From Verrucomicrobium sp. GAS474 (GTDB taxonomy: Bacteria > Verrucomicrobiota > Verrucomicrobiia > Methylacidiphilales > GAS474), in contig NZ_LT629781.1 in assembly GCF_900105685.1 (NCBI RefSeq), positions 992,001-1,056,000 of the forward strand: a stretch of 64,000 nucleotides of DNA, given 5' to 3'. The notes under the pieces are model-generated. The model did no database searches and was not told where the DNA came from. It worked only from the letters and a program-made list of their open reading frames with translations. Shown one piece after another: positions 2,900 to 34,726 of the stretch. The translations under genes and the position numbers were made by a program. How positions within the stretch are numbered: the first letter of the stretch is position 1; the number at the start of each line of letters is the position of its first letter.

Positions 2900-3031
2900 T
2901 GTCCAAAAAAGGAATTCCTGCACCTCGTCTAAAGCATAACTTGCGACATCCCCTTCAGAGGGGACGATCTCGGCGCGTGGTCGTTTTAAGTATAATTTGC
3001 GCGGCTTTGCCGATTTGAAGCATAAACCGAG
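2900..3031 (+). repeat. Transposon left end with three transposase-binding-site candidates
   Basis: Three related sites follow the TGT terminus: AAAGCATAACTTGCGA (2931-2946), TTTTAAGTATAATTTGCG (2984-3001) and TTTGAAGCATAAACCGAG (3014-3031). They share the core AAG(C/T)ATAA with the right-end sites and are the expected TnsB-type binding repeats. A short palindrome, CCCCTTCAGAGGGG, lies at 2950-2963. Confidence 0.75.
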
Positions 3032-3203
3032 AATTTCTAGATCTCGGGATGCCGACGAACTCCGTCAGCTACTGCTATTATCTTAGCTGTCGCGCAGTAG
3101 GGCTTGTTTTCATCTCGTTCTCTATTTTGCTCTATAACGAGAGAGAGGATTCAGGTGGGAATGGTCGCTCGACGAGATGTACTATGCGGGTTAGACCGTT
3201 GGT
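3032..3203. other. Non-coding stretch inside the left end
   Basis: An AT-rich stretch between the last left-end site and the first cargo gene. It probably holds the promoter of the TPR gene; no convincing promoter or ribosome binding site could be singled out. Confidence 0.4.
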
Positions 3204-5879: not shown

Positions 5880-5954
5880 GAAAAACAAGAGTGAGGGGCC
5901 TTTTTTCTCGCTCGGTGATCAACGAGTTTATAGAATTTGATTCCCTAAACTGCT

Positions 5955-6275
5955 GTGAGACAAATCAAGACAGAGTTATATATTGCGGTTGGAGATGAGA
6001 GATCAGAGCTATCTGAAGAGGCGTGGGAATTGTTCCTAAGCGAGATTGTCACTAGTCGCTTCCCAAAAGGCATTACCGTTCTTCCTGGAAGCGGGCAGTG
6101 GTTCAATCGTCATCTGGGGAAGCATCAGAATCTGAAGTTGAAGGTCGTTGTTATCATCCATGAATCCACGCCTCGCGATCGCGAAAAGATCGAGGAGATC
6201 CGTTCGACTTGGAAAGACCGCTATCCTTGCGAGTCCGTATTAAAAGTCGAACAAGAAGTAGAAGTTTCCTTCTAA
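5955..6275 (+). CDS. DUF3574-like protein (cargo)
   Basis: A 106-residue protein matching the DUF3574 pattern: an N-terminal KTELYIAVG strand, then the motif around EEAWELFLSEIVTSRFPKG, ITVLPGSGQWF, and a strand LKVVVIIHESTPRDREKIEEI. DUF3574 proteins are small, often exported or cytosolic, of unknown function; this one has no signal peptide. A GTG start is used (MRQIKTEL); no strong ribosome binding site. It is divergent from the TonB receptor and convergent with the ligase gene, whose stop lies 11 bp away. The family call is from memory. Confidence 0.65.
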   Translation: MRQIKTELYIAVGDERSELSEEAWELFLSEIVTSRFPKGITVLPGSGQWFNRHLGKHQNLKLKVVVIIHESTPRDREKIEEIRSTWKDRYPCESVLKVEQEVEVSF

Positions 6276-6286
6276 GAACAGCAGGA

Positions 6287-7555: not shown

Positions 7556-7566
7556 CTGTTTTCTCC

Positions 7567-8892: not shown

Positions 8893-8915
8893 GGAGGGCA
8901 AAACAGCGGTCCCGC

Positions 8916-10436: not shown

Positions 10437-10457
10437 AGATTGCAAAACCCCTTTCGG

Positions 10458-10475
10458 ACTTACAAATTTGTAAGT
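10458..10475. promoter_or_regulatory. 18-bp perfect palindrome ACTTACAAATTTGTAAGT
   Basis: A perfect inverted repeat in the 101-bp gap between the histidine kinase stop (10538) and the pseudo-kinase start (10436). Both half sites read ACTTACAAA. It lacks a T-run, so an operator is likelier than a terminator; an internal promoter controlled by the cargo response regulator is possible. Confidence 0.6.
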
Positions 10476-10537
10476 TTCCTACAAATATGTGGGGCCAAGG
10501 AGTGAAAAGCAAGGGTGTACGAAAAGAGAGAATTAGT

Positions 10538-13018: not shown

Positions 13019-14235
13019 TCCTTAAAGCGAGCAAGTGCAATCGTACAATTACCGCCTCCCATTCCATGAGAGTTCACAAGCATAGTGTCGATTGAAACTT
13101 TGCGAGCGGCTCCCGGCACAAAATCGAGGTCGCAGATTGGATCCGGGATTTCGTAGTTGGCGGTGGGATGAACCATTTTACGGTCTATCGTTAAGGCAGA
13201 GGCCACCATTTGAAGCGCTCCTCCAGCAGCGAAAGGATTGCCGGTCACCCCCTTGATCGAGGAGATCATCACCTTCCGAGCATGCTGGCCAAAAACCTTC
13301 TTGATGGCATCACTTTCGACACGATCCATGTTTCGATCACTAGGCCCATGGGCATTGATGTATTGGACGCGATGGGTACTGATACTTCCGTCATCCATGG
13401 CTCCTTGCATCGATTCGACCAAACCTGATCCGTGCTCTCCATCATGCGGATCGAGGTTGGAGCGACAGCCAATCACCTCTGCGTAGATCGGAGCTTTGCG
13501 TGCCTTAGCATGCTTAAGCTCTTCAAAAATGCATACGCCCGCTCCTTCGGAAGCCAATCCTCGATCGCGTTTGAGGTCGAAAGGCCGACTGGCTTTCTCC
13601 GGGGGATCATTGCGGTCGGTCAGCATTCCGCAGGCTTCTAGATCCGCAAAAGGATGAAAGGCGATAGTGGAGTCGGATCCACCAGCCAGGATAATCTCTT
13701 CTTCACCGCTGCGAATGCGTTGATAAGCGATGCCCATTGCGTCCAAGCCTGCAGCGCAGGCTGTGGAAGTGGTCAGAGAGCGGGCGTGCAATCCAAAGTA
13801 TTCTGAGATCACGGTGCAGACCGAGTTCGCTGTTCCCGCAGGAATGAATAGAGGAGAGGGCGATGACCGCGGGACATGCTTCATCATGATGTCTAAGGGG
13901 CCTCCAGTGACGCCCATAACCAAGGATAGATTGGCGCGGAGTTTTCCATCTAGCTCGAGACGCGAGGATCTGAGGGCCATGACCGAAGACACGAGTCCAA
14001 AGAGCGCGTTCTTCCCGTAGCGATTTATTTTGATGCTCGAATCAAAATATTCGCTGGTATCGATTTTCCCTACCTCTCCGCCAATTTTACATTTGAGTGT
14101 CGAAACATCAAAGGACTTGATGTAGTCGATCGCACTATGGCCTAAAATTAAGTTAGACCAAAACTGCTCAACTCCAATGGCTTTTGGCGCTACAGCCCCC
14201 ACGCCTGTGATGACAACCCTTCGCTTTCTATACAT
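13015..14235 (-). CDS. Beta-ketoacyl-ACP synthase II-like protein with altered active site (cargo)
   Basis: A 406-residue ketosynthase of FabF length. The nucleophile motif STACAAGLDAMG gives Cys160, NAHG gives His296 and K328 is in place. The second catalytic His of FabF (TGH motif) is replaced: the sequence reads KGVTGNPFAAGG, with Asn333 exactly 37 residues after His296, as His340 is in FabF. The resulting Cys-His-Asn set resembles KAS III and chalcone-synthase-type enzymes. It probably condenses an unusual acyl starter in a small pathway together with the PaaK-like ligase. It is the first gene of the operon that continues into the kinase with a 4-bp overlap. Confidence 0.87.
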   Translation of the reverse strand: MYRKRRVVITGVGAVAPKAIGVEQFWSNLILGHSAIDYIKSFDVSTLKCKIGGEVGKIDTSEYFDSSIKINRYGKNALFGLVSSVMALRSSRLELDGKLRANLSLVMGVTGGPLDIMMKHVPRSSPSPLFIPAGTANSVCTVISEYFGLHARSLTTSTACAAGLDAMGIAYQRIRSGEEEIILAGGSDSTIAFHPFADLEACGMLTDRNDPPEKASRPFDLKRDRGLASEGAGVCIFEELKHAKARKAPIYAEVIGCRSNLDPHDGEHGSGLVESMQGAMDDGSISTHRVQYINAHGPSDRNMDRVESDAIKKVFGQHARKVMISSIKGVTGNPFAAGGALQMVASALTIDRKMVHPTANYEIPDPICDLDFVPGAARKVSIDTMLVNSHGMGGGNCTIALARFKE

Positions 14236-17513: not shown

Positions 17514-20500
17514 TTAGCTCCGTTCCAAGGACTCGACGGATCCATTGGACCGGACGATGTAATATTTTGAGGTTCCAAGATCGTACGGACGGTCTTCTTT
17601 GGTCGATCGATAGGCAGAGTTATAATTTCGGCTTATGGTCGCTTCGATGAACAGGGCATGCCTCTTCTTTTTCAGGAGATGGCCGATCAAGTCGGCACGA
17701 ACTTCAAAATGGCGACCGGCAGAGCTATCAGAGTCGTTCTCTTTTTTCTCTCCCCAGACGATCATTCGGGCAGCTTCGCTACCATTCGCCAGAGTGAAGG
17801 AGGTGCGCAAGGAGTTGGGAGTCAATCCCAGGAGTTGGCACATCGCTTTGTTGAAGACAGAAAATCCAAGATTTATTCCCTTCCGTCGGGGGTCGGTATG
17901 CTGCCACTCGGCATCGCCATCGACCTCTTCCGCCCATGGCAGGAAGGTCACTCCTAAGCGTCGTTGCTCCTCCCGGGAATATCCATTGAGGAGTTCGGCG
18001 AGGGAAAGCGGTCGTGGACGTCTTTTAGAGATTAGCGCCGCGCCTAAGATAGCAATCTGATCTTCAGGGATCATGACTGCCCGGACATCATTGTTTCCCT
18101 GTCGACGATGGTCGGCGATTCCAGCATAACCTGACAACGTGATCCATTCTCTGGGCATGCCCTTTCGAACTCCGGCCAATTCTTCAAATTCCTCATCCGT
18201 TGGAGAAAACCACCTCTCCATTTCTGGAAACTGACGCCAATATTCGGGTTTGAGCGGCGTCGGGCTTCGAAAATCGGATACCCATTGAAAATGCGTTTGG
18301 GGCGATCCTATTTCAAGATTCACCCAGGACTGAAATGGATTCACGATCGACTCGCGCTCGTAAGATTCAATGAGCAGGGGTTCTCGATCTATTAGCTCTC
18401 CCATGACGCACATGAGCGCATGATATTCCAAATAGACCCTCGTCGTTTCAATTTCGGGCTCCTGCCCATGGTCATTGGATCGCTTCATCCAGTCGCTATC
18501 GGATGACAGTTCACGCGGATCCGACCACCAATCTTTGTCGGAATAGCCCCATCTATCACAAATCCATTTCTCGGCCAGTCTACAGAATTCTTCAGGCCAT
18601 TTTCCGAAGACCCGCCCGGCAGGAGAAAACCAGTATGGCACCGTATCCATCTCGCTGAAGGAAAAGCGGCCTTTTTTAGCTGACTCTTCCCGCTCGGAAA
18701 GCGCCTGCCATTCCGGTCTGAGAAGGCAGGACTTCGGTTCATGGAGGCCACTTACCCTCTCCAATTCCTCGCTTGATCCATTCCAAAATCCTTCACTAGC
18801 CAATTTTTCGAGAATCTCCTTAGCAACCTGTCGAACGAAGACATGGGGGAATTCCGGATCCAACGCCACTTTGACTATCTTAGTGCCATGAGAAGCCACG
18901 CGTCGCATGTCATCTTCTGCTATGTGCCGCAGGAAGAGCAGTAGCCACATGCGGGCCGACATCCAGAAGAACTCCAAACGAGGAGAGCGAAAGGCTCCAG
19001 CCTCTTTGGAGGGCAGCTTTTCGACCAGCGCACCTAGGAGATCAGAGCCTTGCTTCGCGCGAATCAAAGACCTCGCAGAATGAAGTGCCTGCCATCTAAT
19101 CTTTTTTTCCGAATGGCCTAAAAAGCTCCATAGGAACAAGGCCAATGCCTCGTTCAAATGGGCTGGGGGTGCCAAAGGAGGCTTGGCAAGTGGCTTTGCC
19201 TTTTCCTGTGCCAACTTCCCTTCTAAACGGGTCATCCACCATTGGAAAACGGCCAGGATCGCCGTGGAATTTAACCGTTTGGCTAGGACATGGGCGACGT
19301 TGATCACTTCGACAACGGACAAAGAATCACTGTTCTGCGCCGCGGCGGAGATCAGTAATTGAGTCTCTCTTCCCTGACAGACGTCGGCGGCAAGAATTTC
19401 CTCTACGTCTTGAATAGAAGTGCTCCATTCCGCTTCGTATCGAGTCAGGGCGGGGAGATGCGACGCTATGAAACGGAAAACTCCCTGGGGAGCCCATGCC
19501 TCGACTTCAGGGGTGTGTCGCCATTGTCGCAGAAGACTCATAAACGACTTGGCGATCTCCCTGTGGATAACGATGTTGTCGGGATCTTGGACTAGCGCTT
19601 CCAAGAACGCAGGACGCTGATTGGCGAGAAGCTCTCTGGCGATCTCCTGTATCAGATGATCCACGCCATCTTTATGACGGGAACGCCACGCTGCACTTAG
19701 GGCGTCGGACAGCCCCGAAAAATCGTTCGCCATCGCTTCCTGTACAATGGGGAATGATTTGGCCTCCGTCTTTAATGAAACCGAGGAATATCCTCCTCCC
19801 TGATTACTTTCCAACGACGACAGGAATGCGGCAAACTTTTCTAACTCGATGATTTCTCTTTGCTCGGCAAGATGATGCTCCTTCGCCCAGGTGATGATCG
19901 CATCGGCATGCATCTTTCTCTCGGATAGCGGAATATCGCGACGAATACTCAGGCTGATTCTCTCGATCAGCCGGATCAACTCCGAACGTTTCCCTGATCC
20001 CTGCTCATAAAGTCGATCCAATAGTCGCAAGTAGACTCGATATTGAGAATCATGTGGAAGGGCAAAATTGAGTAAGGCGAGAATCCCATCCCATTCTAAT
20101 AGGTCCAAATCGATCGCCGCATCCACTAGGCCAAAAATCCCATCACCTATCCAATGAAGCCCCTCATCGTCCCACCGGGCGGCGGTCGCCAAGCCCAAGG
20201 GAAAGTCCAACAGCGAAATGGTTCGGATAAATTCTCGTTTTGGTAGTGAGGATGAGTCGGAAACGAACGGGACCTGTTGTTCCAAAATATCTACCAAACG
20301 CACCGCACTTTGGGTCGCCTCTGAGGGCAAGATGGCTTTGGCCAAAATCTGCCCTATGACCGACGTCAGCTTGAGAATCGGGATGGAATCGTCATCGAGA
20401 GAACTCGTCGAAGCGAGAGCTCGTCGATAATACGCCTCACCTGTCTCGGGTTTCAGTGTCGCTGCGGCACAACGCAACAGATTGCTACGACGTTCAGCTG

Positions 20501-23500
20501 CAGGAGCCGGGGTGCGGGAGATCACCTCCACCGCTTTTTCGATCAATCGTTCCGTGACGAGGCCATAGGCGGAAGACACACGTAGCTGTTCCGCCAACAA
20601 TAAATTCGCATGAGAGGCTCCTGCCTGTACGAGCGCCTCGCTCGCGTCGCTTATCTCGTCAAAGAAGGACGAGGCGTCGCCTTGGCAAAACAATAGGGCT
20701 TGCGTCGAAAGCTTGATCCACTCGAAAAAGGTGGTGTCCGTCTTGAACCACCTCTGCTTAGCGTGCCCGCGCCGCTTTTGGAGATCCTTGCGGAGTTCAG
20801 GCAGGATTTTCTCAACAGAAGAGAGCGTATGGATCACGGCCGCTCGGCGAGCGTAGGCTTCGAGAGTCGAAGAGAATTCTTCCAGGTGATAGGACTCCCA
20901 TCCTCTTTCCTCCCGTTCGGTAACCGGAGGAGTTATCGACTTCAGAGTGATGTCGGATCCTCGAATGACGCTTTGCAAGCAATGAACCCGTAGCGGAAGA
21001 TCCCAGTCCGATCGATGGATGTGAGAAACGGGAGAAGCTTTTGGAAAGGGTTGAGGGAAACGTTCAAAAAGCCACAGGATCAATTCCGGAGTTTCACCCG
21101 AATAGAGTGCTAGCTCGCCAAAGGAAACGATGTTCTTGGCGAGATGCTCACGACGCCTCTTGCCAATGGGAGTCTGTTGTAAGTCACGCAGAGTTCGCTG
21201 AACCAGCGTTTTTTCCGGAATGCCTCCTTGATCCCAGATTTCCGCCAAGACGATGATCCTAGCCCAGGCGGGGAGATCCAAGACTTCCAAGTGGCCACAT
21301 AGTCGGGAGGGAAGCTCGCTCTTTGCCAGTCGGCACGCGAGTTTTTGAGTCAACTCCGGCCATATCCGAATCGGTTTCCATCTTTTCAGCCGCTGGACGA
21401 CAGCCTTTTCGCCGTACAAGAAATAAACGGCCTCCAGTTCGAACGCGATGTCGTCGGTCGTGATATTCCATAATGACCTTTCCGAGGACATCTTCGTTTC
21501 CTGGATCATTACTGAGCGAACGTTCAACCACGCTTTCCCCTGATCAAATAGGGTGACGGCCTCTTCCCGACGATTTTCTTCTCTCGCCTGCACTGCCGCA
21601 AGTCGCCAACAGGCGGGACCATAGAGAGGGCCATCTTTGAGTTGCCGAAAAAGCTCGGCCACGACATCGGGATCGCCGTATCGGGAGGCGAGCTCGGGAT
21701 GTTCGGCAATGGCAGCTTTTAACGAGGCGTCTGATCGAATGAAGTCGGTCGAGAGCAGGAGAAGGCGCAACGCATTTTCAGCATCGTCGAGATGCCCCGC
21801 ACTCTGCAGGGCCAGTTTCAGCCGTCGACGAGCCACGCTTAGACGTTTGATTACGTCCTGAATGCACAAGGAGATTGGCCGCTGAACGGCTAAGTCGATC
21901 AAGTCGCGATGGCGGTTAGCCTGATAAAGATGATCCGCGATCGAAACCGCACTGAAGACATCAGTCTCCAACCGTTCGAGGAGGCATTCCGCTAGGATGC
22001 CGTGCGCTATGGCGAGCGATTCTTCGGTGACTTTTCCATTAAGCCATACATCAAAGTCTTCGTCCCGGAAGCAAAGAGAATCGTTCTCGATATGAATTCC
22101 TGGAGAAAGAGCCTGGCACGCAGCCTTCGTCTCCTGCATAGAAAGCCTCCATGCTTTAGAAAGGATTTCCAAGGGAGCTGGTCGAGATAGGGCAATAAGA
22201 AGACTGGTCTTTTCCTGGACGTCAGAGGCGAAGTGAGAAGAAAAATCGTTGTATAGATCCGAGAAGAGATCTTCGGAGGTTCTGCGGACACGCTCCAGAA
22301 GAACGGGCAGGGTGCTTTCGGGACGACGTCGCAGCGCATCGACGATCGTGGGAGCAGCAGGTTTACTGGTAAGGTAATAGAACTGGACTCGCGGATTTCC
22401 CCCCGTTTTGGTGTGGAAGGTCTGGCACTGCTCGTCCGTGGCGAGTGGATAGCGATTCCGAAGGTTTTGGGATGATGCCTGAAGATCGAAACCCTCCAGG
22501 AGAAGTTCGTGGGTTCCAGCGGGCGGTTTTAGCCCGGCGCAGCGATGAGTGCGGCTGGTGACAATCAGAGCGCAATGTGGCGGGAGAGAAAGCCCCCAGA
22601 GTCGTTCCAAAAAGAACGAAGACCCTTCTTTTCGAGCCATTTCAAATGCGTTGTCGGCAGCGTCGATAACCAGAACAAGCCATGCCCCTTCCTGCTGAAA
22701 GACGCGGGAAACATCTTCGACGAGGCGCTTGAGGTGACGTTCACGGGCAACGTCATCGGAGGACAGGAGCTGAAATGGCATTCCGCATTTCACCGCGATC
22801 TCGTTGGTGATTTGGGGGAGGCATCCTTTCGCCAAATGGCGGACAGAACCGAAATGGCAATCCCCTCCGCCAAAGCAATCGTAGACGACAACACACGATC
22901 CTTCTGGAAGATGTTTGCACAGGGATAAAGCAGTCGTCGTTTTTCCCACTCCCGCTCCGGCGTGCGCGAGGACGCGGCCGCTGCTGGACGCGAGGACCAC
23001 TTCGGCCAACCGCTTGGCATCGCTGGATTCAATGAGGGCCTTAGGGAAAGAAAAAACCGGAGGTTCGGGAAACAAGTGGTCGAGAGAACCAACCCCCAGG
23101 CAGGCCAACACTTCATTCAAACCCAAACCGAGTTGGCCAACTGTATCGGGGAGAGCCTGCTTTCTAACCAGAGAGGTCAACGCGGACACCGCGTCACCCG
23201 GGCTGCTGATCCCGGTTGCGCCAACCTCTTGGATCAGCTTAATGCGTTGCAGCTCCCTAGACTCTTCTCCGCAGTGGGAAAGGTCGAGATGAGTCACAAA
23301 GGACGTAAATAGAGAGCCTTTGAATTTGGTCGCCTTTTTGAATCGGGTAAGGAGGTCCTTGGCGGAAGCGTCAGCCTTCCGGGAAAAGGCTTGAAGAGTC
23401 TTTCCGTTTCGCAGGTGAATCTGAAGACGGGTTAAGGTCTCAAGCACTTCGGGGGAAATCGGCTGATTGCTTACCAGGCGAAGGCTTATTTTGGCATTCA

Positions 23501-23903
23501 ATGCCTCGGAGGAATGCTTCTCGCAAAGGCCTTGATACGCCCTCGCAAGCCCCGCAATGAGGCTGGGCCCTTTGGACGACTCACAGAGGCGCGCGGCAGT
23601 CCACGGGATAGTGGGATGCCGGGTGCTGTATTTGAGCTGTTCGATGACAATTCGGTCGGCCGTCTGGATGGTATCTCCTCCGAAATAGCTCGTGAGATCA
23701 ACGGCTAGATAGTGACCTTTCGAGTCTTGAGAGGACTGTTCACGTGAGACTCCCTCCATGATGACGCGACGCAGCTGACTCTTCGGGATCAGCATTTGCA
23801 CGATTCGTCGTGCCGCCCATAGGAAGTGAAAGTCGTGGCCTGCTTGAGATTCCCTGACTCCTCCGGGAAAAGATCCTGAATGTTCCATGGCTCGCTGAGT
23901 CAT
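17514..23903 (-). CDS. Giant STAND NTPase with N-terminal Cap4-type nuclease, candidate antiphage sensor (cargo)
   Basis: 2129 residues. N-terminal nuclease-like domain (about 15-200): counted from the TTG at 23906, E51 in IMEGVSREQ, D70 in YLAVDLTSYFGG and the QxK of IEQLKYS (Q90, K92) fit the E...D...QxK pattern of Cap4/DUF4297 PD-(D/E)xK enzymes. A P-loop NTPase follows (Walker A HAGAGVGKTTTA near 318, VYDCFGGGDCHFG, Walker B LVLVIDAADNA near 410, then SRTHRC), then about 1600 residues of helical repeats. This is the nuclease-STAND-repeat plan of Avs-type proteins that detect phage proteins and then cleave DNA. It is much longer than typical Avs2-4 proteins. ATG 23903 is preferred over TTG 23906. 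The defence role is inferred from architecture. Confidence 0.82.
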   Translation of the reverse strand: MTQRAMEHSGSFPGGVRESQAGHDFHFLWAARRIVQMLIPKSQLRRVIMEGVSREQSSQDSKGHYLAVDLTSYFGGDTIQTADRIVIEQLKYSTRHPTIPWTAARLCESSKGPSLIAGLARAYQGLCEKHSSEALNAKISLRLVSNQPISPEVLETLTRLQIHLRNGKTLQAFSRKADASAKDLLTRFKKATKFKGSLFTSFVTHLDLSHCGEESRELQRIKLIQEVGATGISSPGDAVSALTSLVRKQALPDTVGQLGLGLNEVLACLGVGSLDHLFPEPPVFSFPKALIESSDAKRLAEVVLASSSGRVLAHAGAGVGKTTTALSLCKHLPEGSCVVVYDCFGGGDCHFGSVRHLAKGCLPQITNEIAVKCGMPFQLLSSDDVARERHLKRLVEDVSRVFQQEGAWLVLVIDAADNAFEMARKEGSSFFLERLWGLSLPPHCALIVTSRTHRCAGLKPPAGTHELLLEGFDLQASSQNLRNRYPLATDEQCQTFHTKTGGNPRVQFYYLTSKPAAPTIVDALRRRPESTLPVLLERVRRTSEDLFSDLYNDFSSHFASDVQEKTSLLIALSRPAPLEILSKAWRLSMQETKAACQALSPGIHIENDSLCFRDEDFDVWLNGKVTEESLAIAHGILAECLLERLETDVFSAVSIADHLYQANRHRDLIDLAVQRPISLCIQDVIKRLSVARRRLKLALQSAGHLDDAENALRLLLLSTDFIRSDASLKAAIAEHPELASRYGDPDVVAELFRQLKDGPLYGPACWRLAAVQAREENRREEAVTLFDQGKAWLNVRSVMIQETKMSSERSLWNITTDDIAFELEAVYFLYGEKAVVQRLKRWKPIRIWPELTQKLACRLAKSELPSRLCGHLEVLDLPAWARIIVLAEIWDQGGIPEKTLVQRTLRDLQQTPIGKRRREHLAKNIVSFGELALYSGETPELILWLFERFPQPFPKASPVSHIHRSDWDLPLRVHCLQSVIRGSDITLKSITPPVTEREERGWESYHLEEFSSTLEAYARRAAVIHTLSSVEKILPELRKDLQKRRGHAKQRWFKTDTTFFEWIKLSTQALLFCQGDASSFFDEISDASEALVQAGASHANLLLAEQLRVSSAYGLVTERLIEKAVEVISRTPAPAAERRSNLLRCAAATLKPETGEAYYRRALASTSSLDDDSIPILKLTSVIGQILAKAILPSEATQSAVRLVDILEQQVPFVSDSSSLPKREFIRTISLLDFPLGLATAARWDDEGLHWIGDGIFGLVDAAIDLDLLEWDGILALLNFALPHDSQYRVYLRLLDRLYEQGSGKRSELIRLIERISLSIRRDIPLSERKMHADAIITWAKEHHLAEQREIIELEKFAAFLSSLESNQGGGYSSVSLKTEAKSFPIVQEAMANDFSGLSDALSAAWRSRHKDGVDHLIQEIARELLANQRPAFLEALVQDPDNIVIHREIAKSFMSLLRQWRHTPEVEAWAPQGVFRFIASHLPALTRYEAEWSTSIQDVEEILAADVCQGRETQLLISAAAQNSDSLSVVEVINVAHVLAKRLNSTAILAVFQWWMTRLEGKLAQEKAKPLAKPPLAPPAHLNEALALFLWSFLGHSEKKIRWQALHSARSLIRAKQGSDLLGALVEKLPSKEAGAFRSPRLEFFWMSARMWLLLFLRHIAEDDMRRVASHGTKIVKVALDPEFPHVFVRQVAKEILEKLASEGFWNGSSEELERVSGLHEPKSCLLRPEWQALSEREESAKKGRFSFSEMDTVPYWFSPAGRVFGKWPEEFCRLAEKWICDRWGYSDKDWWSDPRELSSDSDWMKRSNDHGQEPEIETTRVYLEYHALMCVMGELIDREPLLIESYERESIVNPFQSWVNLEIGSPQTHFQWVSDFRSPTPLKPEYWRQFPEMERWFSPTDEEFEELAGVRKGMPREWITLSGYAGIADHRRQGNNDVRAVMIPEDQIAILGAALISKRRPRPLSLAELLNGYSREEQRRLGVTFLPWAEEVDGDAEWQHTDPRRKGINLGFSVFNKAMCQLLGLTPNSLRTSFTLANGSEAARMIVWGEKKENDSDSSAGRHFEVRADLIGHLLKKKRHALFIEATISRNYNSAYRSTKEDRPYDLGTSKYYIVRSNGSVESLERS

Positions 23904-23976
23904 CAATAGGGGGAATCACTGTACGCAGAAATCTATTTCATAATGACCTAAGTCACTTTCGAAATCGCTCGCTCAT

Positions 23977-24705
23977 CTATGCGAGATAGTCGGCTAAAAA
24001 ATTGGTTACTCCCTGAATCATCTGCTCAACATCCGTCTTTTTGAACTGATCGAATTCGCCATGGGCTGCTTTATTCCGAATGTCAGCCCAGGCACGAAGC
24101 TGTTTAGCTTTGAGCTCATTAAACGCTCCACTCGTCTTTAAATCATCGATAAGCGGCCCGAGCGTCTTCGGCTCTCCATTAGACTTAATAATTTCTAGCG
24201 GCGGTTGCTGTTGGCCACAGAGGGTTCGTAGACCTTTCTCCAATACGGCACCCGCCAATACCGCTGCAGGCACGTGGTCAACTGAGCTGGTTTGCGTTCC
24301 TCGCAAAAGCGATTCGGCTTGTCCCATGTAGTCGGCCGCCACTTCAGCTTCGATTTTTAGAAAGATGCTATCGAGAAACCCTTTTTCCAAGTCATCACGA
24401 AATGCCTCTAAAATGCCTAGAGAGTATTGTACTTCCGGCTTTTTCCCCCCGGCTTTAGAAAAAATGTCAATTTGTTGACCAAACTTCGAATCTGATTTTA
24501 CGAAAGGGTCGAACAACGTCAGACAGTTAGTCTTCCACCGTGCCAGACGTTGAGAATCCCAATCGTAGCTGGTGTAGCTTATGTGAACGTTGCCCCGCGT
24601 ATGAGGAGGGATAACTCGAATGGATTCGACAAAAGCTTTTCCTTCCAAAATTAGTTCGTCGCATCGAGTAATAATCAATACTCGCGCTTTGCTTGTGGCA
24701 TTCAT
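23977..24705 (-). CDS. HEPN-like protein (cargo)
   Basis: About 242 residues from the ATG at 24705 (MNATSKARVLIITRCDEL); an ATG at 24768 would add 21 residues of unlikely sequence. The C-terminal half looks like a HEPN or DUF4145-type helical domain: AAVLAGAVLEKGLRTLCG, a middle helix LGPLIDDLKTSGAFNELKAK, and WADIRNKAAHGEF carrying the R-N-x3-H motif typical of HEPN RNases. It lies 73 bp upstream of the STAND gene on the same strand, so it may be the first gene of that operon. It could act as a toxin-like RNase or a nucleic-acid-binding accessory. Confidence 0.65.
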   Translation of the reverse strand: MNATSKARVLIITRCDELILEGKAFVESIRVIPPHTRGNVHISYTSYDWDSQRLARWKTNCLTLFDPFVKSDSKFGQQIDIFSKAGGKKPEVQYSLGILEAFRDDLEKGFLDSIFLKIEAEVAADYMGQAESLLRGTQTSSVDHVPAAVLAGAVLEKGLRTLCGQQQPPLEIIKSNGEPKTLGPLIDDLKTSGAFNELKAKQLRAWADIRNKAAHGEFDQFKKTDVEQMIQGVTNFLADYLA

Positions 24706-24768
24706 TAGTTTCTTATTTGTAAACGAACAGGCCAAAGGCACTTGTCGTGAGCCGCTCATGAGTGGCAT

Positions 24769-25743: not shown

Positions 25744-26047
25744 ACGCCAAGGGATAGCACCGGTCTTCACGCTCCCAGGCCATGTGCAGTTTTACTGGAA
25801 AGGCCCTTTTTACGGGGCAGTAAAATAGCCTCTTTTAGTAAAATGGGCTTCTTTTACTAATCCAATGATAAGGCCGGCATGTAGTAGATCTGTATATTGC
25901 GCTTAGACACCGGACAGTCCTTCCGAAGAACTGGCACCTCTGCCTTTCAACCTCTCCCGATGTTCCAAGCATATATCGCGCGAAGATTCTGTCGTTCGTG
26001 TGTCGCTGCCATTTTCGAGACAACCCGTGAATGCGAAAATCGTTCGA
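25744..26047. repeat. Intergenic region with nested TTTTACT/AGTAAAA inverted repeats
   Basis: TTTTACT (25790-25796) pairs with AGTAAAA (25819-25825); a second hairpin pairs TTAGTAAAA (25835-25843) with TTTTACTAA (25852-25860), so four copies of one heptamer alternate in orientation within 71 bp. They could be terminators of the lipoprotein gene or paired operators for the phosphoesterase gene. No other gene is seen here. Confidence 0.6.
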
Positions 26048-26785
26048 ATGCCACCCATACTAGGCAGCACCCATCCATCCCTTGTGCCGTTTTCTTCCAT
26101 TCCCGCCGTGACATATGCTGTCGGGGACATTCACGGTCGAGCTGATCTCTTGAAAGAGCTTCTCTTTATGATCCTCACCCATCGAAAGCAGATCCATGGT
26201 TCTGCCAAAATCGTTTTCCTGGGGGACTACGTTGATCGTGGCCCCGATGAAGCTCGAGTCATCGATATTCTCCGTTCCAAAAAGCTTCGAAAAGACTTTG
26301 ACGAAGTGGTGATTCTGAAAGGCAATCACGAACTCATGTTGATCGACGAACTAACCTCATACATGGCTGATAAAACCAAAATATCGGAAGGGAAATTTTC
26401 GGTAGCGAAACTGTATACTCGAGATTACGACGCCTTCACGATCAGTCTTCGAACATTGAGAGATTTCTTGGAAAAGATGCCTCTCTTTCATTCGGACGGA
26501 ATCCGACTCTTCACCCATGCTGGAGTTGGGCCGACGTCAGAGATTGGATCGTGGTCCGCTGATGATCTCTTGTGGTATTGCGGCCCGGTACAGGACCTAA
26601 CAGGGCGCTTGGTGGTTCACGGTCACACGATTGTCTGGGATGGCCCTGTGGCAAACCGATCTGCCGTGAACGTGGACACAGGAGCCTTTATGAGTGGCCG
26701 TCTTACTGTCGCAATTTTTGAAGGCTCGTCCAGGCAGCCGACTTTTCTGTCGACAATGCCCACCGATTCTCCAACAACCCTCTAA
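26048..26785 (+). CDS. Calcineurin-like metallophosphoesterase (cargo)
   Basis: A 245-residue protein with the full PPP/PrpA-type metal-binding set: VGDIHGRADLL, FLGDYVDRGPDE, LKGNHELM, then LFTHAGVGP and VHGHTIVWDGP. This is the serine/threonine protein phosphatase or diadenosine tetraphosphatase fold; the short length favours a bacterial PrpA-like phosphatase acting on phosphoproteins or nucleotides. The start could be ATG 26048 or GTG 26000; neither has a good ribosome binding site. It is convergent with the next gene, whose stop overlaps its end by 4 bp. Confidence 0.82.
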   Translation: MPPILGSTHPSLVPFSSIPAVTYAVGDIHGRADLLKELLFMILTHRKQIHGSAKIVFLGDYVDRGPDEARVIDILRSKKLRKDFDEVVILKGNHELMLIDELTSYMADKTKISEGKFSVAKLYTRDYDAFTISLRTLRDFLEKMPLFHSDGIRLFTHAGVGPTSEIGSWSADDLLWYCGPVQDLTGRLVVHGHTIVWDGPVANRSAVNVDTGAFMSGRLTVAIFEGSSRQPTFLSTMPTDSPTTL

Positions 26786-28070: not shown

Positions 28071-28465
28071 GTACCTTCATAGCCTTGAAATCGGCGCTCC
28101 CTCAGAACGAAGGTCAACCGATATCAGCCCTCACTTTTGTTGCAGAAGTGGAGGCGTCCTAATCTTGCCCCAGAGAAAAGCCCCTTCGTAAGGTCGTCGT
28201 AGTGTTCCGCATGAACGAAACGCGGAGCCGAACCTGAACACTATGACTGCTCTTTTAATGGCCGATGGTCGCGCACCCCCGTCCGTGAGGATTTGATCGC
28301 GACAAAAAAAGAACCCCGAGTTGGAGCTCGGGGCCTTTTTCAACCGGGCGGAGCCGGTGGGCAAACTATCTGATCGCAGCCTACTTCTCCCCGCCCCCTT
28401 AGTCAAACCTTTAGTAATCAAGGAGGTCCACGCTTTGTCTCGTGGCTTTCTTGAGGAGAACCTGC
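28071..28465. other. 395-bp non-coding region upstream of the transposition operon
   Basis: No credible coding sequence on either strand. It holds a bidirectional terminator (28314-28333) in the middle and the tnsAB promoter and ribosome binding site at the right. The part 28131-28310 could encode a short terminated transcript. Confidence 0.45.
28314..28333. terminator. Bidirectional intrinsic terminator upstream of tnsAB
   Basis: CCCCGAG and CTCGGGG arms around a six-base loop. On the plus strand the stem is followed by CCTTTTTC, on the minus strand by TTCTTTTTTTG, so it can stop transcription both ways and would shield the transposase operon from read-through. Confidence 0.8.
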
Positions 28466-31138
28466 ATGACACCGATCGAGTTTGAAGCATGGGCCGTTGC
28501 CCAGAACCTTTCCCCTGCCGGGAGAGCCGTTGTTGAACGTATCCGCACCAGTCCGCCGTCACGGCGGGTGAATAGCTCCGGAGGAAACGTCTCTGGAACC
28601 TTCAGTTCCTCCAAGATGGGGGTGACCATCCAGTTCGAGAGCCACACCCTCGAGCTGCCCCTGATCCATCTCTTGGAATACGATGACGATGTCCTCGAAT
28701 ACTACGATCAGCCCGAAGCGATCCCGTTCTCGTACACCAGGCCGGACGGGCGGAAGATCGGCTTCAATTCGGTACCCGACTTCTTCGTCCTGAAGCGCCA
28801 CTGGGCCGGATGGATTGAGGCCAAGCCCTCATCGAAGCTGGAAGAAATCTGCCTCAAAGCCCCTGCTCGCATATCCAAAGACAGGGACGGGCGGTGGACT
28901 TGTCCTCCGGCCGTGACTTACGCGAAGCCGCTTGGTCTCGACTTCGTATTGGTGACCGACAACGACGTCAATCCGACCCTCGCCGGCAACCTGGAACTCT
29001 TGAGTCGCTATCGTTCGGAAAAATGCGCCTCCGCGTTGATTCTCCAAGCCCAATGTTTGGTGGGCGATCATCCCGGCATCGCGCTTCGAGATCTAATGGA
29101 TGTTCTGGAGTGTGCCCGAGAGGACATGTTCCGGCTCATCGCAACCCAATGTCTCTACGTCGATCTCTTCAGCCATCGTCTTAGCCACACCCAAGATGCG
29201 CAGGTGTTCGTTTCCGTCAGGCAGGCGCGATCTTGGACGAGCAGCGCCACTCCCCTCCCTGGCATCAATTTGATCCGGGTGGAACCAGGAAACATGATCG
29301 AATGGAATGGCACCAAGCACCGTATCGTAAATGCACACAACGGGCTCGTTTCGCTCGAAGCTTTGGACGGCTCGATTCAGGAAATCCGGGAAGACGCTTT
29401 TTCTGGGTTGGTGGTGAAAGGTCGTATTAAACCCATTAGCTCCGAGCCATCCCCTGCGCCATCGAGCCAGGCCAAGCTGCTCAAGAACCTGAGTCCTACC
29501 GATCTGGAGAGGATCACCGCGCGCCAAAAAATTCTGTCGGGCGAGATCAAGGCCAAGTTGGCGCCGAGTACCCTTTACCGATGGAAGGCGGCGCAAAGAG
29601 AATCCGCGATGACCCATGGCTCGAGTGCGCTTGGCTTGGCCGGCAAGCAGCACTTGCGTGGCAATCGCAAAAAGAAGCTCCCCGCCTATCTCTACGAGGA
29701 GATGCAAAATTTCATCAAGGATCACTTCGAAACCCTCACGGCCAAAAGCGCCCATGCCGTTTATCTTCTCTTTCGAAATCACTGTATAGAAAAGGGCATC
29801 AAGCCGCCCAGCGATCCGACCTTCCGCGCCGCCATCAAAGTTCGCTCCGGCCATAACCAGAAGAAAAGCCGGGAAGGACACCGCGGAGCCTACGCGACAA
29901 AGGAGTTCTCGTATGACACGCTGGATCTTTCGTCACGCCACGGCGACGCCCCCTTCCATATCGGCCATGTGGATCACACGGAAATCGATCTCGAGGCGGT
30001 CGATGAAGAGACCGGGCAATGTCTCGGTCGAGCTTGGTTGACAGTCTTGATCGATGCCTACTCTCGCCGGGTGCTGGCTTTCGTCCTGACCTTCGATCCT
30101 CCTTCCTACCGTTCCTGCATGCTTGTGATTCGCCATTGCGTGGCGCGGCATGGGCGCATTCCCAAATTCATCGTTCTCGATGGTGGCCCTGAATTCAAAT
30201 CGGGCTATTTCGAAGGACTCCTCGCCATGATGGAATGCCACAAGAAAGTGCGGCCTCCGGCCCAACCGCGTTTTGGAGCGGTGTTGGAGCGGCTTTTCGG
30301 AACCACAACGACGCAGTTCTTCCATAACCTTCGTGGGAATACCAAGCTGACGAAGCGCTCCCGCACGGTAACGAAGCAAACCGATCCCAAGCGGCTCGCC
30401 GTCTGGACCCTGCGAGAACTCTTCTGCCGACTCGAAGAATATTTTTTCAACGTCTACGACTGCCTTTCGCACACGACTCTTCTGCGGTCCCCTCGGGAAG
30501 CCTTCGTGGCCGGAATGAAGGAAGGTGCGTCACGGGGATTCGTTCAGAGGCAACTTATCCCTTACGACGAAGGCTTCCGAATCCTGACGTTACCGGGAGC
30601 TCCCCGGGGATCCTGCAAGGTCCATCCCACCAAAGGCGTACAGGTCGGCTACGTCCGCTATTGGAACGACTTGTTTCGCGGTGCCGAGGCGCACGGAAAG
30701 AAAATCTCCGTCCGTTACGATCCGCTGGATCTTTCGACGGCCTACGCTTACGTCAAAACGCAGTGGGTTCTTTGTCGCTCCTGGGATTGGTCGATCACGA
30801 CCGGAACCTCCGAGAAAGAACTCCGTCTCGCCTCCATCGCCTATCGGCAGAGGTTGGGAGAGCATGCCAAGAGTCGGACGCTGAATATGAACAAGTTGGG
30901 AGCGTTTCTCAAAGAAACCAGCGATCACGAAGTCCTCTTACAACGGCGCAGGGATCGCGCCTTGGCCGGGGTTCTCGAAGAAGCCGATACGATGATCCAG
31001 ATACTGCCCGTCGAGGCGCCGAGTTCGGAGGCCTCCGTAGTGTCCTCTATGAATGCACCCGTTGATTCTTCCGATCGGAATTCGGCTCCCGAAACTCCAC
31101 CAGCCCGACCTTTCATCGAACCTTACGAAGAGCTTTGA
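28466..31138 (+). CDS. tnsAB: TnsA-TnsB fusion transposase
   Basis: 890 residues fusing both Tn7 cleavage subunits. The TnsA-like domain (about 55-170) has THTLEL-type E63 within SHTLELPLIHLLEYDDDV, the DQP motif, VPDFF (D105) and WIEAK (E118, K120), the acidic and Lys residues of the nuclease that cuts the 5' ends. The TnsB-like part has helix-turn-helix segments and an RNaseH-fold core with D503 (HVDHTE), D572 (LDGGPEF) and E608 (VLERLF), a D,D-35-E triad that cuts and joins the 3' ends. With both active, transposition should be cut-and-paste. The ATG at 28466 has GAGGAG eight bases upstream. First gene of the tns operon. Confidence 0.92.
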   Translation: MTPIEFEAWAVAQNLSPAGRAVVERIRTSPPSRRVNSSGGNVSGTFSSSKMGVTIQFESHTLELPLIHLLEYDDDVLEYYDQPEAIPFSYTRPDGRKIGFNSVPDFFVLKRHWAGWIEAKPSSKLEEICLKAPARISKDRDGRWTCPPAVTYAKPLGLDFVLVTDNDVNPTLAGNLELLSRYRSEKCASALILQAQCLVGDHPGIALRDLMDVLECAREDMFRLIATQCLYVDLFSHRLSHTQDAQVFVSVRQARSWTSSATPLPGINLIRVEPGNMIEWNGTKHRIVNAHNGLVSLEALDGSIQEIREDAFSGLVVKGRIKPISSEPSPAPSSQAKLLKNLSPTDLERITARQKILSGEIKAKLAPSTLYRWKAAQRESAMTHGSSALGLAGKQHLRGNRKKKLPAYLYEEMQNFIKDHFETLTAKSAHAVYLLFRNHCIEKGIKPPSDPTFRAAIKVRSGHNQKKSREGHRGAYATKEFSYDTLDLSSRHGDAPFHIGHVDHTEIDLEAVDEETGQCLGRAWLTVLIDAYSRRVLAFVLTFDPPSYRSCMLVIRHCVARHGRIPKFIVLDGGPEFKSGYFEGLLAMMECHKKVRPPAQPRFGAVLERLFGTTTTQFFHNLRGNTKLTKRSRTVTKQTDPKRLAVWTLRELFCRLEEYFFNVYDCLSHTTLLRSPREAFVAGMKEGASRGFVQRQLIPYDEGFRILTLPGAPRGSCKVHPTKGVQVGYVRYWNDLFRGAEAHGKKISVRYDPLDLSTAYAYVKTQWVLCRSWDWSITTGTSEKELRLASIAYRQRLGEHAKSRTLNMNKLGAFLKETSDHEVLLQRRRDRALAGVLEEADTMIQILPVEAPSSEASVVSSMNAPVDSSDRNSAPETPPARPFIEPYEEL

Positions 31139-31140
31139 CC

Positions 31141-32292
31141 ATGAATACGACTGATACCTCTGAGAATCTTCCGGCCAGGATCGACTATACGAAATCGGCT
31201 GTGGAGCGACGCGAGGCCTTCTTTGCCTTCAAGACAAAACACAACCACCTCGATAATGCGTTCAAAACCATCATGGGGATCATCCGCACCCCCGACTGCG
31301 GGAGGCTAGGGATCGGGATCGGACCGACCGGTGCGGGCAAATCGACTCTTTTGAGGTCAGCTCGACGGAAGATCGAGCTCGAACTCGGAGACGAGCTGCT
31401 TGCGGATCCTTCGCGGATTCCGTCGGTCATCGTTACCGCCTGCCCTTCGGAAAACCACGCTTTCAATTGGCGGTTGTTCTATCTCCGCGTATTGGCCGGC
31501 TGTCGAGAGATCGCGGCTCAGCAGAAGATACCGATCGAGTTTCTGGATGGTCGACCGCTTTTCCGCCAAATGGCAAAGGCAGATACGGCTGCTGGCCTCC
31601 GCGAGGCGGTCTGCGAGGTTCTGCTGCAACGGCGTCCACGCGCACTTTTCGTGGATGAGGCGCAACATATCCTCAAGACAGGGAGCGGTGAACACCTCCA
31701 AAGCCAGCTCGACGTCCTGAAGACGTTGGCCGACGAATGCAAAGTGCCGATCATTCTTTTCGGGACCTATTCGCTATTGATCCAGCATGAGATGAACGGA
31801 CAACTCGGACGTCGCTCAACGACGATCCACTTCCCACGATACCGATTCCACGTTCCTGAAGAACTGGCCTGCTTTGACCGGGTGTTGGCAACCTTCACGG
31901 CGAAGATTCCGACCGAAGCTCTCCCGGACTTGATGCGGCATCGGGATTTTCTCTTCGAGAGATCGCTCGGTTGCATCGGCATGCTCAAGGAGACCCTCGT
32001 GCGAGCCGTGAACATGGCGATCTCGGAAAAAGCCGCCACCGTGACTGAAAGCCATCTGCGGAGATCCGCTCTCGATGCCAGGAAGTGCGAAGCCATCCTG
32101 CGTGAAATCCTTCAAGGGGAATCTCTTTTCGAGAAGAAGGCGGAAGACGCCGCAGCACAGCGTCTTCGGAGTTCTCTGCAAATGGAAGTTCCGGTTCGTG
32201 AAATTGCCGCCAAGAAAGCTTCGGGCTTCCCTCGCAAACCAGGTCAACGTAACCCCACGCGTGATCCAGTCGGCATGCCTCAGGCTTTATGA
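31141..32292 (+). CDS. tnsC: TnsC/TniB-type AAA+ ATPase regulator of transposition
   Basis: 383 residues. Walker A GPTGAGKS (61-68) and Walker B ALFVDEAQHIL, then a sensor stretch LFGTYSLL, identify the AAA+ TnsC/TniB family. It forms filaments on target DNA and passes the TniQ-selected site to the transposase. ATG 31141 with GAAGAG eight bases upstream is preferred; a TTG at 31135 would overlap the tnsAB stop (TTGA). The C-terminal tail is basic (KKASGFPRKPGQRNPTRDP), typical of the transposase-interacting end. Its stop overlaps the next start by 4 bp. Confidence 0.9.
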   Translation: MNTTDTSENLPARIDYTKSAVERREAFFAFKTKHNHLDNAFKTIMGIIRTPDCGRLGIGIGPTGAGKSTLLRSARRKIELELGDELLADPSRIPSVIVTACPSENHAFNWRLFYLRVLAGCREIAAQQKIPIEFLDGRPLFRQMAKADTAAGLREAVCEVLLQRRPRALFVDEAQHILKTGSGEHLQSQLDVLKTLADECKVPIILFGTYSLLIQHEMNGQLGRRSTTIHFPRYRFHVPEELACFDRVLATFTAKIPTEALPDLMRHRDFLFERSLGCIGMLKETLVRAVNMAISEKAATVTESHLRRSALDARKCEAILREILQGESLFEKKAEDAAAQRLRSSLQMEVPVREIAAKKASGFPRKPGQRNPTRDPVGMPQAL

Positions 32293-33419
32293 TCGATGAG
32301 GAGATCCCGTTCGACGAGCTACCCCTCGACATTCCTCCGCGAACATCTCTCTTTCGGCTGGTTCCATTCGGAATTGGAACGCCAGAAGTGGAGAGTTTCG
32401 CCGGTTGGCTGACTCGATTGGCTCGAGCTCATCGGGTGAGCGTTCGAACTCTGCTCCTGCAGGTGCTCCCCCATGAAGAAGGCAGGTACGCCGCAGCAGG
32501 AAAGAGTGGCCGATGGCGGGTTCGGTGCAATGTGCTGAATGTCCCAGGCAGAATCCTTCCACCTCTCGCCCAGACAACGGGGATCTATGATCTTTCCTCG
32601 TTATCGCTGGAACGTTGGTTTGGTTGTCTCTCCCGTTTGGGCCTGCTTCGTCATCGTCGAGCGTGGTGTCCGGAATGTCTGCGAGAGAAGCCTTATGAAA
32701 GGCTGCTGTGGACGCTGCGCCCTGTGCAAATGTGTTCGGTTCACCAGCTTCCTTTGGAAGAGCACTGCCCATTTTGCGGACACTCTCCACCACGGCTGAA
32801 TCTGGGATCGTCTCTCGAAATCTGTCCCCAGTGTCGGCAAGGAATCGCTTTTTCTCCCAAGCAGTCTCGGGATCTTTCCGAATGGGACGCCCACGTGGCA
32901 AAAGCCGTGGGAAGCTTAGTCGCGCTAGAAAAACCGATGCGAATGAATTCACCGGCACTCATCGGCGAAGGAATCCGGAATGCTCTGCCTACTTGGTCGC
33001 AGGGAGAAATCACCCGAATGCTGGGAGTTTCCGACAACCGTTTTGCCTTGCTGCGTTCCCGCAACAAGACGTTGCCTTTGGAGTTTTTGTGCCGGGTTTC
33101 GTTTGTCCTTCGTGTCAGCGTTCCATCTCTTCTAACAGGAGATCCGGACACCTGGACTCCGGCAAGCCCGAGAAAAGGCCTTTGGAAGCAGGCGCAGCGG
33201 CTTTTGGTCGAGAGTGATCCACTCCTTCGGCAATGTCTTGAGCAACTCATCGATGAAGGATGCCCCTCCCTTCGAGAGGCCTCGCTTCGCTTGGGGAGAT
33301 CGCGGACGACGCTGTTGCGCCATTTTCCGGAAGAGTGCTCCGAACTGCTGAGACGGTCTGGCAATCGTTACGCGTGGCGCATTCCAAAAGTCGTGGAGAC
33401 GGCACCGCGTCTTTTATAA
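32289..33419 (+). CDS. tniQ: TniQ/TnsD-family target selector
   Basis: 376 residues. The TniQ N-terminus (GTPEVESFAGWLTRLARAHR) is followed by zinc-ligand pairs WCPECL, MCSVHQ, HCPFCG and ICPQCR, then a helix-turn-helix-rich C-terminal part (MLGVSDNRFALLRSRN and SLREASLRLGRSRTTLLRHF). TnsD-type members bind a chromosomal attachment site and recruit TnsC. Given where this element sits, its binding site should be the 3' end of dnaN (inference). ATGA overlap with tnsC; 198 bp separate its stop from the right terminus. It is shorter than Tn7 TnsD (508 residues) but longer than CRISPR-associated short TniQ forms are in some systems. Confidence 0.88.
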   Translation: MIDEEIPFDELPLDIPPRTSLFRLVPFGIGTPEVESFAGWLTRLARAHRVSVRTLLLQVLPHEEGRYAAAGKSGRWRVRCNVLNVPGRILPPLAQTTGIYDLSSLSLERWFGCLSRLGLLRHRRAWCPECLREKPYERLLWTLRPVQMCSVHQLPLEEHCPFCGHSPPRLNLGSSLEICPQCRQGIAFSPKQSRDLSEWDAHVAKAVGSLVALEKPMRMNSPALIGEGIRNALPTWSQGEITRMLGVSDNRFALLRSRNKTLPLEFLCRVSFVLRVSVPSLLTGDPDTWTPASPRKGLWKQAQRLLVESDPLLRQCLEQLIDEGCPSLREASLRLGRSRTTLLRHFPEECSELLRRSGNRYAWRIPKVVETAPRLL

Positions 33420-33542
33420 CCCTCTCGGCAAAAACTCTCGCCTTATGGCTGAGCTATTTTTAGGAGGCTTAAAAACAGCCGTTCGAGCGAAAAATCGGTT
33501 TCCGCAATTTCTCTTAACTCCTGATCTTCAGAATCTTCTGCG

Positions 33543-33617
33543 CTTTAAGTATAAAACGCACGATGCTGTTTTGAAGCATAACCTGCGGATTTTTCGCAAG
33601 TTATGCTTTTTCTGACA
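33543..33617 (+). repeat. Transposon right end with three transposase-binding-site candidates
   Basis: CTTTAAGTATAAAACGC (33543-33559), TTTTGAAGCATAACCTGCG (33569-33587) and CGCAAGTTATGCTTTT (33595-33610, the reverse complement of AAAAGCATAACTTGCG), then the TGACA terminus. The terminal site is inverted relative to the left end's first site, as expected; the two inner sites face the other way. Confidence 0.8.
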
Positions 33618-33622
33618 AGATG
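33618..33622 (+). repeat. Target-site duplication AGATG, right copy
   Basis: Identical to 2895-2899 and directly follows the ACA terminus of the right end. Nine bases then separate it from the dnaN stop codon. Confidence 0.85.
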
Positions 33623-33631
33623 ACGGGAGGA

Positions 33632-34726
33632 CTAGGCCGTCCGCATCGGCATGATCACGTACAGGAAGGGCTTCTGGTACTTGATGACGCCGGGGCTGAG
33701 TTCGTCGATGAAGTCGAAGAAGATCTCGTCGCTCTCGATGTTCTTCAACGGGTCCATGAGGAAGTAGGGGTTGAAGGCGATGGTGAAGTCCTTGCCGGTG
33801 TAGGCGATGGAGAGGGTTTCCTTTGCTTCGCCGACGTCGGGGGTGTTCGAGCTGATCTCGAGGTTGTTCTTCGAGAAGGCGAGCTTGATCGAGGTCGACT
33901 TGTCGTTGGCGAGGAGGGAGACGCGATGGACGGCGCTGAGGAGGACGTCGCGGTCGAGGACGATGCGGTCCTTGGCCTCGGCGGGGATGACCTGGCGGTA
34001 GTTGGGATACTTGCCGTCGATGAGTTTGGAGAAGATGACGACGTTGCCGAGGTCGAAGACGATCTGGTTCTCGGAGAGGGAGAGGGTCAGGGGCTCGTCG
34101 CCGCCGAGGACGCGCTGGAGCTCGTTGACGGCCTTGGTGGGGAGGATGACGTCGCCTTCGTTGCCGGGAGGGAATTCGAGTTCCTGCTCGATGAGGGCGA
34201 GGCGGCGGCCGTCGGTGGCGACGACGGTGAGCTTGCCTTCCTTGAAGGAGAGGAGGACGCCGTTGAGGACGTAGCGGCTCTCGTCCTGGGACATGGCGTA
34301 GGAGGTCTTCTTCAGCATCTCCTTGAAGGTGCCCTGGGTGAGCTTGAAGACCTTGGCGCCGTCGGTCTTGGGGAAGGCGGGATATTCTTCCTCGGGGAGG
34401 CCCATGATGCGGAAGAAGGAGGCGCCGGAACGGATGAGGGCGTTCTGCTTGGAGTCGACCTCGATGGTGATCTCGGAGGCGGGGAGTTCCTTGGCGATGG
34501 AGAAGAGGCGGCGGGCGGGGAGGGTGGTGCCGCCGGCTTTCTCGACGGTGGCGTCGACGACGGCGCGGATGCCGACGTCGAGGTCGGTGGCGGAGACGGT
34601 CAGCTTGCCGTTCTCGACCTTCAGCAAGGCGTTGGAGAGGATGGGGAGGGTCGTCCGGTTGGTGACGACGTTCTGGACGGCCTGGAGACCGTTAAGGAGG
34701 GCTTCCTTGCTGATGATGCACTTCAT
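33632..34726 (-). CDS. dnaN: DNA polymerase III sliding clamp, beta subunit
   Basis: 364 residues with the three-fold clamp plan: MKCIISKEALLNGLQAVQNV (start), TLPILSNALLKVENGKLTVS, GRRLALIEQE, and the conserved C-terminus KPFLYVIMPMRTA. The clamp encircles DNA and tethers polymerase III and repair enzymes. dnaA and recF are not beside it here. The C-terminal coding region, which is among the best conserved in the family, lies 14 bp from the transposon's right terminus and would make a durable attachment site. The transposon leaves the gene intact. Identity is certain from the sequence. Confidence 0.97.
   Translation of the reverse strand: MKCIISKEALLNGLQAVQNVVTNRTTLPILSNALLKVENGKLTVSATDLDVGIRAVVDATVEKAGGTTLPARRLFSIAKELPASEITIEVDSKQNALIRSGASFFRIMGLPEEEYPAFPKTDGAKVFKLTQGTFKEMLKKTSYAMSQDESRYVLNGVLLSFKEGKLTVVATDGRRLALIEQELEFPPGNEGDVILPTKAVNELQRVLGGDEPLTLSLSENQIVFDLGNVVIFSKLIDGKYPNYRQVIPAEAKDRIVLDRDVLLSAVHRVSLLANDKSTSIKLAFSKNNLEISSNTPDVGEAKETLSIAYTGKDFTIAFNPYFLMDPLKNIESDEIFFDFIDELSPGVIKYQKPFLYVIMPMRTA

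Follow-up and report, generated by a model that had tools for sequence, protein, structure and literature searches.

A Tn7-like transposon with fused TnsA-TnsB very probably has its attachment site at the 3' end of dnaN

Few sites read by a protein have been documented for Tn7-like transposons, namely glmS, tRNA genes and parE, while comM and yhiN are used by other or unknown means (PMC11406308). The locus described here raises the question of whether the 3' end of dnaN, encoding the sliding clamp, is another such attachment site, as an initial annotation had proposed. All coordinates are positions in the window, the stretch of 64,000 nt that was analyzed, and its genome is called G000 where genomes are compared. 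Reading the sequence directly delimited a Tn7-like transposon of 30.7 kb at 2900-33617, with TGTC...GACA termini, lying next to dnaN and to a second, older transposon end:

2852-2895 (-): older right-type transposon end (relic), an exact match to the 44-bp end layout, abutting the newer element
2895-2899: left copy of the target-site duplication, AGATG, which overlaps the older end by one base (2895)
2900-3040 (+): left end of the element, with the TGTCC terminus starting at 2900 and three direct putative TnsB-type sites, AAGCATAAC at 2932, AAGTATAAT at 2988 and AAGCATAAA at 3018
33540-33617 (-): right, dnaN-proximal end, with a TGTC terminus and sites at 33600 (near the terminus), 33574 (inverted) and 33547 (third)
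33618-33622: right copy of the target-site duplication, AGATG
33634-33632 (-): stop codon of dnaN
33632-34726 (-): dnaN, DNA polymerase III beta subunit (sliding clamp; TIGR00663 at 357 bits, and Pfam)

The right terminus, ...TTTTTCTGACA, has its last base at 33617, which leaves 14 bp between it and the dnaN stop, as the initial annotation had stated. Its claim that removal of the element joins 2899 to 33623 is likewise borne out by the 5-bp AGATG duplication at both flanks. When the sequence was scanned from the dnaN side, the 2900/33617 pair was the only candidate combining a target-site duplication with terminal inverted repeats in the 104 kb examined. The dnaN-proximal end is compact, with the terminus-near site followed by an inverted site 26 bp further inward, and the far (left) end spreads its three direct sites over ~130 bp. 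TGT...ACA termini, arrays of putative TnsB sites at both ends and a 5-bp duplication mark the element as Tn7-like. The window contains exactly two copies of a 44-bp end layout, TGTC-N6-ASCATAAMTTG-N15-WWATGCTT, at 2852-2895 and 33574-33617, and the layout was absent from 100 shuffles with up to 3 mismatches allowed. An end-like match of 28/50 near 15002 was rejected as chance.

The transposition proteins are encoded in the order TnsA-TnsB, TnsC, TniQ from the element interior toward dnaN, a TnsC regulator thus being accompanied by a TniQ-family selector as in Tn7-like transposons:

28442-31138 (+): TnsA-TnsB fusion transposase, 898 aa (Pfam Tn7_TnsA-like_N, rve and Mu-transpos_C)
31135-32292 (+): TnsC AAA+ ATPase, 385 aa (Pfam TniB/AAA_22)
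32289-33419 (+): TniQ/TnsD-type target selector, 376 aa (Pfam TniQ, 2.2e-16)

Within the fusion, the TnsA part carries Tn7_TnsA-like_N at residues 81-173, and the TnsB part has the domains of a DDE transposase, with rve at residues 527-609 (a match below the Pfam cut-off, yet with E=5e-6) and a Mu-type C-terminal domain at 722-778. TnsAB matched chain M of PDB 9bw1 with E=6.9e-195, and TnsC matched PDB 9g0f (1.8e-60) and the TnsC of 8fcu (2.4e-60). TniQ, the single match to this protein in the whole genome, has TnsD of PDB 8v32 as its closest solved relative: a two-row TniQ profile aligned with it over profile positions 15-373 (E=5e-37), including a C-terminal helix-turn-helix-like segment (PSLREASLRLGRSRTTLLRHFP against PTMEEVGKRLGHHNRTISRHFP). 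PDB 9bw1 and 8v32 come from a type I-B2 CRISPR-associated transposon (CAST). The AlphaFold prediction for TniQ, made from a 3-row alignment, had a mean pLDDT of 43.8 and was set aside.

The remainder of the element is cargo:

3204-28070: TPR protein, TonB-dependent receptor plug protein, NtrC-type regulator, histidine kinase, ketoacyl synthase, Avs3a, HEPN-type protein and others (Pfam and PADLOC)

The TonB-receptor plug protein, the NtrC-type regulator, the PAS histidine kinase and the ketoacyl synthase lie within 3822-14235. The element likely carries an anti-phage NTPase, because a 2130-aa protein at 17514-23906 (-) matches PADLOC Avs3a end to end (E=2.8e-144); the gene that follows it encodes the HEPN-type protein (23977-24768). 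Just outside the tns genes, 26000-26785 (+) encodes a calcineurin-like phosphatase of the ApaH/PrpE type.

TniQ relatives were sought across the order (62 genomes), the class and the phylum. The sole close relative, with 46% identity over nearly the whole protein, was found in a metagenome-assembled genome from a different family of the same order (Verrucomicrobiales bacterium Cf509_bin41, G009), in an element whose TnsAB and TnsC are 47% and 49% identical to those of the window. There dnaN lies on the same side in the same orientation, and the transposon end, with TGTCG at its terminus, lies 19 bp beyond the stop codon. The G009 contig does not reach the left end of its element; in the ~21 kb that could be compared, TnsAB, TnsC and TniQ were the only proteins found in both elements, and the C-terminal part of TniQ is 45% identical between them. 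In a genome from a third family (G003), the contig with dnaN is 3,952 bp long and has an end with this layout 18 bp beyond the stop codon, and no tns genes. Upstream of that end, at 1801-1950 of locus L069, are more end-like repeats (TTATGCTTCC, TTATGGGTT, TTTATGGTTTC), perhaps the remains of further insertions. Insertions beside one gene, on one side, in one orientation and at a near-fixed distance are therefore represented by two ends in G000 and by G009 and G003. The distances from the dnaN stop are 13-14 bp in G000 and 18-19 bp in G003 and G009, up to 6 bp apart, and the bases at the insertion points of the three dnaN sites differ (AGATG, AGAGC and CTTGT).

A search of 384 genomes of the class for the end layout, with up to 2 mismatches, found five places and nothing elsewhere. 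Three of them are beside dnaN (G000, G009 and G003), and the other two, namely the relic in G000 and a junction in G007 that is described below, directly adjoin a left end belonging to a different copy; the pattern was derived from dnaN-adjacent ends and is biased toward finding such ends. A joint pattern, in which a spacer links the coding end of dnaN to a TGTC...CATAA end, matched in five of the 384 genomes, three of which are the dnaN sites and two of which match at loci without dnaN, and reverse-pattern controls of this joint pattern gave 0 matches. The proposal that the 3' end of dnaN is a Tn7-like attachment site gains support from G009 (+19), G003 (+18) and the 384-genome end search, and across order, class and phylum no close TniQ relative was seen at an unrelated site, the only one being that of G009 at +19.

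Within the flanks seen, none of the more distant TniQ relatives (23-38% identity) adjoined dnaN. One of them, in G226 (L076, 7885-8116), has a tRNA-Met gene 157 bp past the reading frame, in keeping with the tRNA sites of this transposon group. In several the similarity is largely confined to the TniQ domain and the C-terminus is a different one, as in the case of 589 aa at a Bryobacterales locus (L020); such differing C-termini would be expected of a modular target selector, and the same modularity of TniQ has been described (PMC10293859). In G033 (L051, 7721-17372), dnaN is followed at 4.5-9.6 kb by a divergent TnsAB/TnsC/TniQ module that reads away from it. We rejected this locus as evidence for a dnaN site, given identities of 28% for TnsAB and 27% for TniQ, the opposite orientation and ends that were not found. 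IMG/VR held no TniQ relative and no exact match to the end layout.

If dnaN is the attachment gene, the sequence recognized may lie in its conserved coding end:

33635-33694 (-): proposed TniQ-read region, the last 60 coding bp of dnaN (PGVIKYQKPFLYVIMPMRTA), proposed from codon conservation

Over 30 loci of the order, codon positions 1, 2 and 3 of these 60 bp are conserved at 0.94, 0.93 and 0.73. TnsD of Tn7 binds the final 36 bp of glmS, and the transposon is inserted ~25 bp further on, whatever bases are there (PMC2918618). The dnaN sites resemble those of Tn7 in having variable insertion bases at a nearly constant distance from the conserved coding end (PMC2918618). The simplest account is that TniQ reads dnaN, because the coding end is conserved, the insertion bases vary, the distance stays within 13-19 bp and TnsAB, TnsC and TniQ are the only proteins that were found in both elements. 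We infer that TniQ would read dnaN within roughly its last 60 coding bases, a role that is suggested by homology to TnsD and by the proteins common to both elements. In this mechanism, the single TnsD-like TniQ would recognize DNA close to where the dnaN coding sequence ends, the dnaN-bound TniQ would recruit TnsC, and TnsAB would insert the element ~13-19 bp beyond the stop in a single orientation, leaving dnaN intact. Taken as a whole, the element is very probably a TnsAB-fusion cut-and-paste Tn7-like transposon for which the dnaN 3' end is the attachment site, read by a single TnsD-like TniQ.

Other accounts of this adjacency would give the reading of dnaN to something else, or to nothing. 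TniQ could be an adaptor at a genuine dnaN attachment site, with a second protein (like TnsF with the TniQ of Tn6022) or a host factor reading the gene. TniQ proteins of ~400 aa have been linked with direct target selection (PMC10293859), so that a partner is possible for a TniQ of only 376 aa, and TniQ and TnsD form a continuum in which some members may need one (PMC10293859). We nevertheless hold this to be quite improbable, as no other protein was found to be common to the window element and the ~21 kb of the G009 element, the alignment with TnsD runs through the C-terminal helix-turn-helix-like segment, and the C-terminal part is conserved between the two dnaN-site TniQs. The solved-structure relatives of TnsAB and TnsC belong to CRISPR-associated transposons, which could mean that the element is an RNA-guided CAST in which a spacer, rather than TniQ, matches dnaN. 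This idea has next to no credence from us: no Cas family was found among the element proteins scanned (small ORFs were not scanned individually), the element has no direct repeats of at least 22 bp within 200 bp and no Rfam match, and there is one TniQ only. The flank of dnaN could also be a tolerant, general island hotspot beside which the element lies incidentally, since dnaN flanks vary widely across the order and the sequences of two congeners diverge from 9 bp after the dnaN stop (L055 of G038 against L054 of G040, G038 having ~3.9 kb extra that includes an HD-motif protein, with no transposon ends seen). General tolerance accounts for neither the fixed orientation nor the near-fixed distance of three same-family ends, which point the same way at 13-19 bp beyond the stop in three bacterial families, with none elsewhere in 384 genomes, and this makes a mere hotspot very improbable.

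The older end bears on whether the site has been used repeatedly. The relic, ...TTTTTTTGACA, stops at 2895, and excision of the newer element would place it 13 bp past the dnaN stop, with the same orientation as the current right end, so this part of the initial annotation also holds. It is not a chance match, because it is identical to the current right end at 37/50 positions, whereas no other 50-mer in the window, on either strand, exceeds 29, and because its layout is absent from the shuffles. The dnaN site was thus probably used twice in G000, the older insertion surviving as one end. A left end of that insertion was found neither by motif in 40 kb leftward nor by searching the genome with the left end, and the latter search returned no second full copy. 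A composite of the same type, a right end, five bases and a left end, is present in another genome of the genus (G007, contig C552, L115 4281-4574), where ACAAC separates the ends of two copies and the left end is 79% identical to that of the window element. MFS and LacI genes adjoin the older end there, in place of tniQ, and dnaN was not found in the G007 assembly. The genome G006, also of this genus, was considered as a source of an empty site and rejected; an aldo/keto reductase gene lies 12 bp after its dnaN and the left flanks are non-syntenic, and therefore there is no clean before/after pair.

Rather than successive insertions, the double end at 2852-2904 could reflect one event, either an aberrant or one-ended transposition or an inherited ancestral double end. 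The junction type shared with G007 is possibly ancestral in the genus, and the older copy's left end is missing from 40 kb leftward, with no second full copy genome-wide. We regard a single event as unlikely, given that the old and current right ends have diverged to 37/50, that the bases between the ends differ (AGATG in G000, sharing one base with the old end, and ACAAC in G007) and that the DNA inside the two left ends is unrelated. Because the junction bases and the DNA beyond the left ends differ, G000 and G007 likely represent two independent re-uses of the position, though both may have inherited one old event. Such double ends in both genomes also suggest that target immunity may be absent or bypassed.

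Several known systems are close to this element. The right end of Tn7 faces the target gene, as the compact end does in the window element too, and the tns genes of Tn7 read away from the target gene, whereas those of the window element read toward it. With Tn7 at glmS (attTn7), the element shares insertion past the stop of an essential conserved gene, fixed orientation and a 5-bp duplication; Tn7 is guided by a protein, and the same is proposed here. The window element departs from prototype Tn7, with its glmS site and separate TnsA and TnsB, in its dnaN site, its TnsA-TnsB fusion and its one short TniQ, and no TnsE was recognized, although TnsE was not sought specifically. PmcCAST (Tn7744), a type I-B2 CAST, likewise has a natural TnsA-TnsB fusion, with homologous TnsAB (6.9e-195), TnsC and TniQ/TnsD, and the window element falls within the TnsAB-fusion clade of the I-B2 and I-D CASTs. 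PmcCAST differs in that it encodes Cascade, carries a further TniQ and inserts at a tRNA gene (PMC11406308). The window element has one TniQ and a dnaN site, there are no tRNA genes in the window, and neither Cascade genes, among the proteins scanned, nor a CRISPR array were found in the element. In Tn7017, an I-F3 CAST, a parE-targeting TniQ/TnsD similarly directs insertion beside a conserved housekeeping gene (PMC11406308), but Tn7017 belongs to another transposon branch, has two TniQ proteins and is CRISPR-associated. Tn6022 is also Tn7-like, with a TniQ and a conserved target gene, comM, but it employs a TnsF as a separate protein and lands within comM itself (PMC10293859), whereas here no accessory protein common with G009 was found and the target gene is intact.

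Our literature search, which covered main texts and openly accessible papers, with supplements and closed papers outside its scope, turned up no account of dnaN serving Tn7-like elements as an attachment site, and dnaN is unmentioned in the main texts of PMC10293859, PMC8649781 and PMC11406308. The element thus belongs to a known transposon group and uses an attachment gene for which we found no report, which does not establish absence from the literature. A new site at an essential replication gene would mean a new natural target selector, and a compact one, in which a single TniQ and no CRISPR parts were found. It would also mean that the TnsAB-fusion group, the source of the I-B2 and I-D CASTs, uses a protein-coding target besides tRNA genes, a point relevant to how specificity is encoded in the TniQ C-terminus. 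We put forward more tentatively, as something that may or may not prove right, that a TnsAB-fusion lineage in this Verrucomicrobiota order has come to use dnaN through one compact TniQ that would both read the gene and recruit TnsC, with copies landing beside old ones to build a growing array of islands carrying defense genes such as Avs3. The flank of dnaN appears to be a safe landing site for this transposon family, and the spot just past dnaN could become an insertion site for these bacteria.
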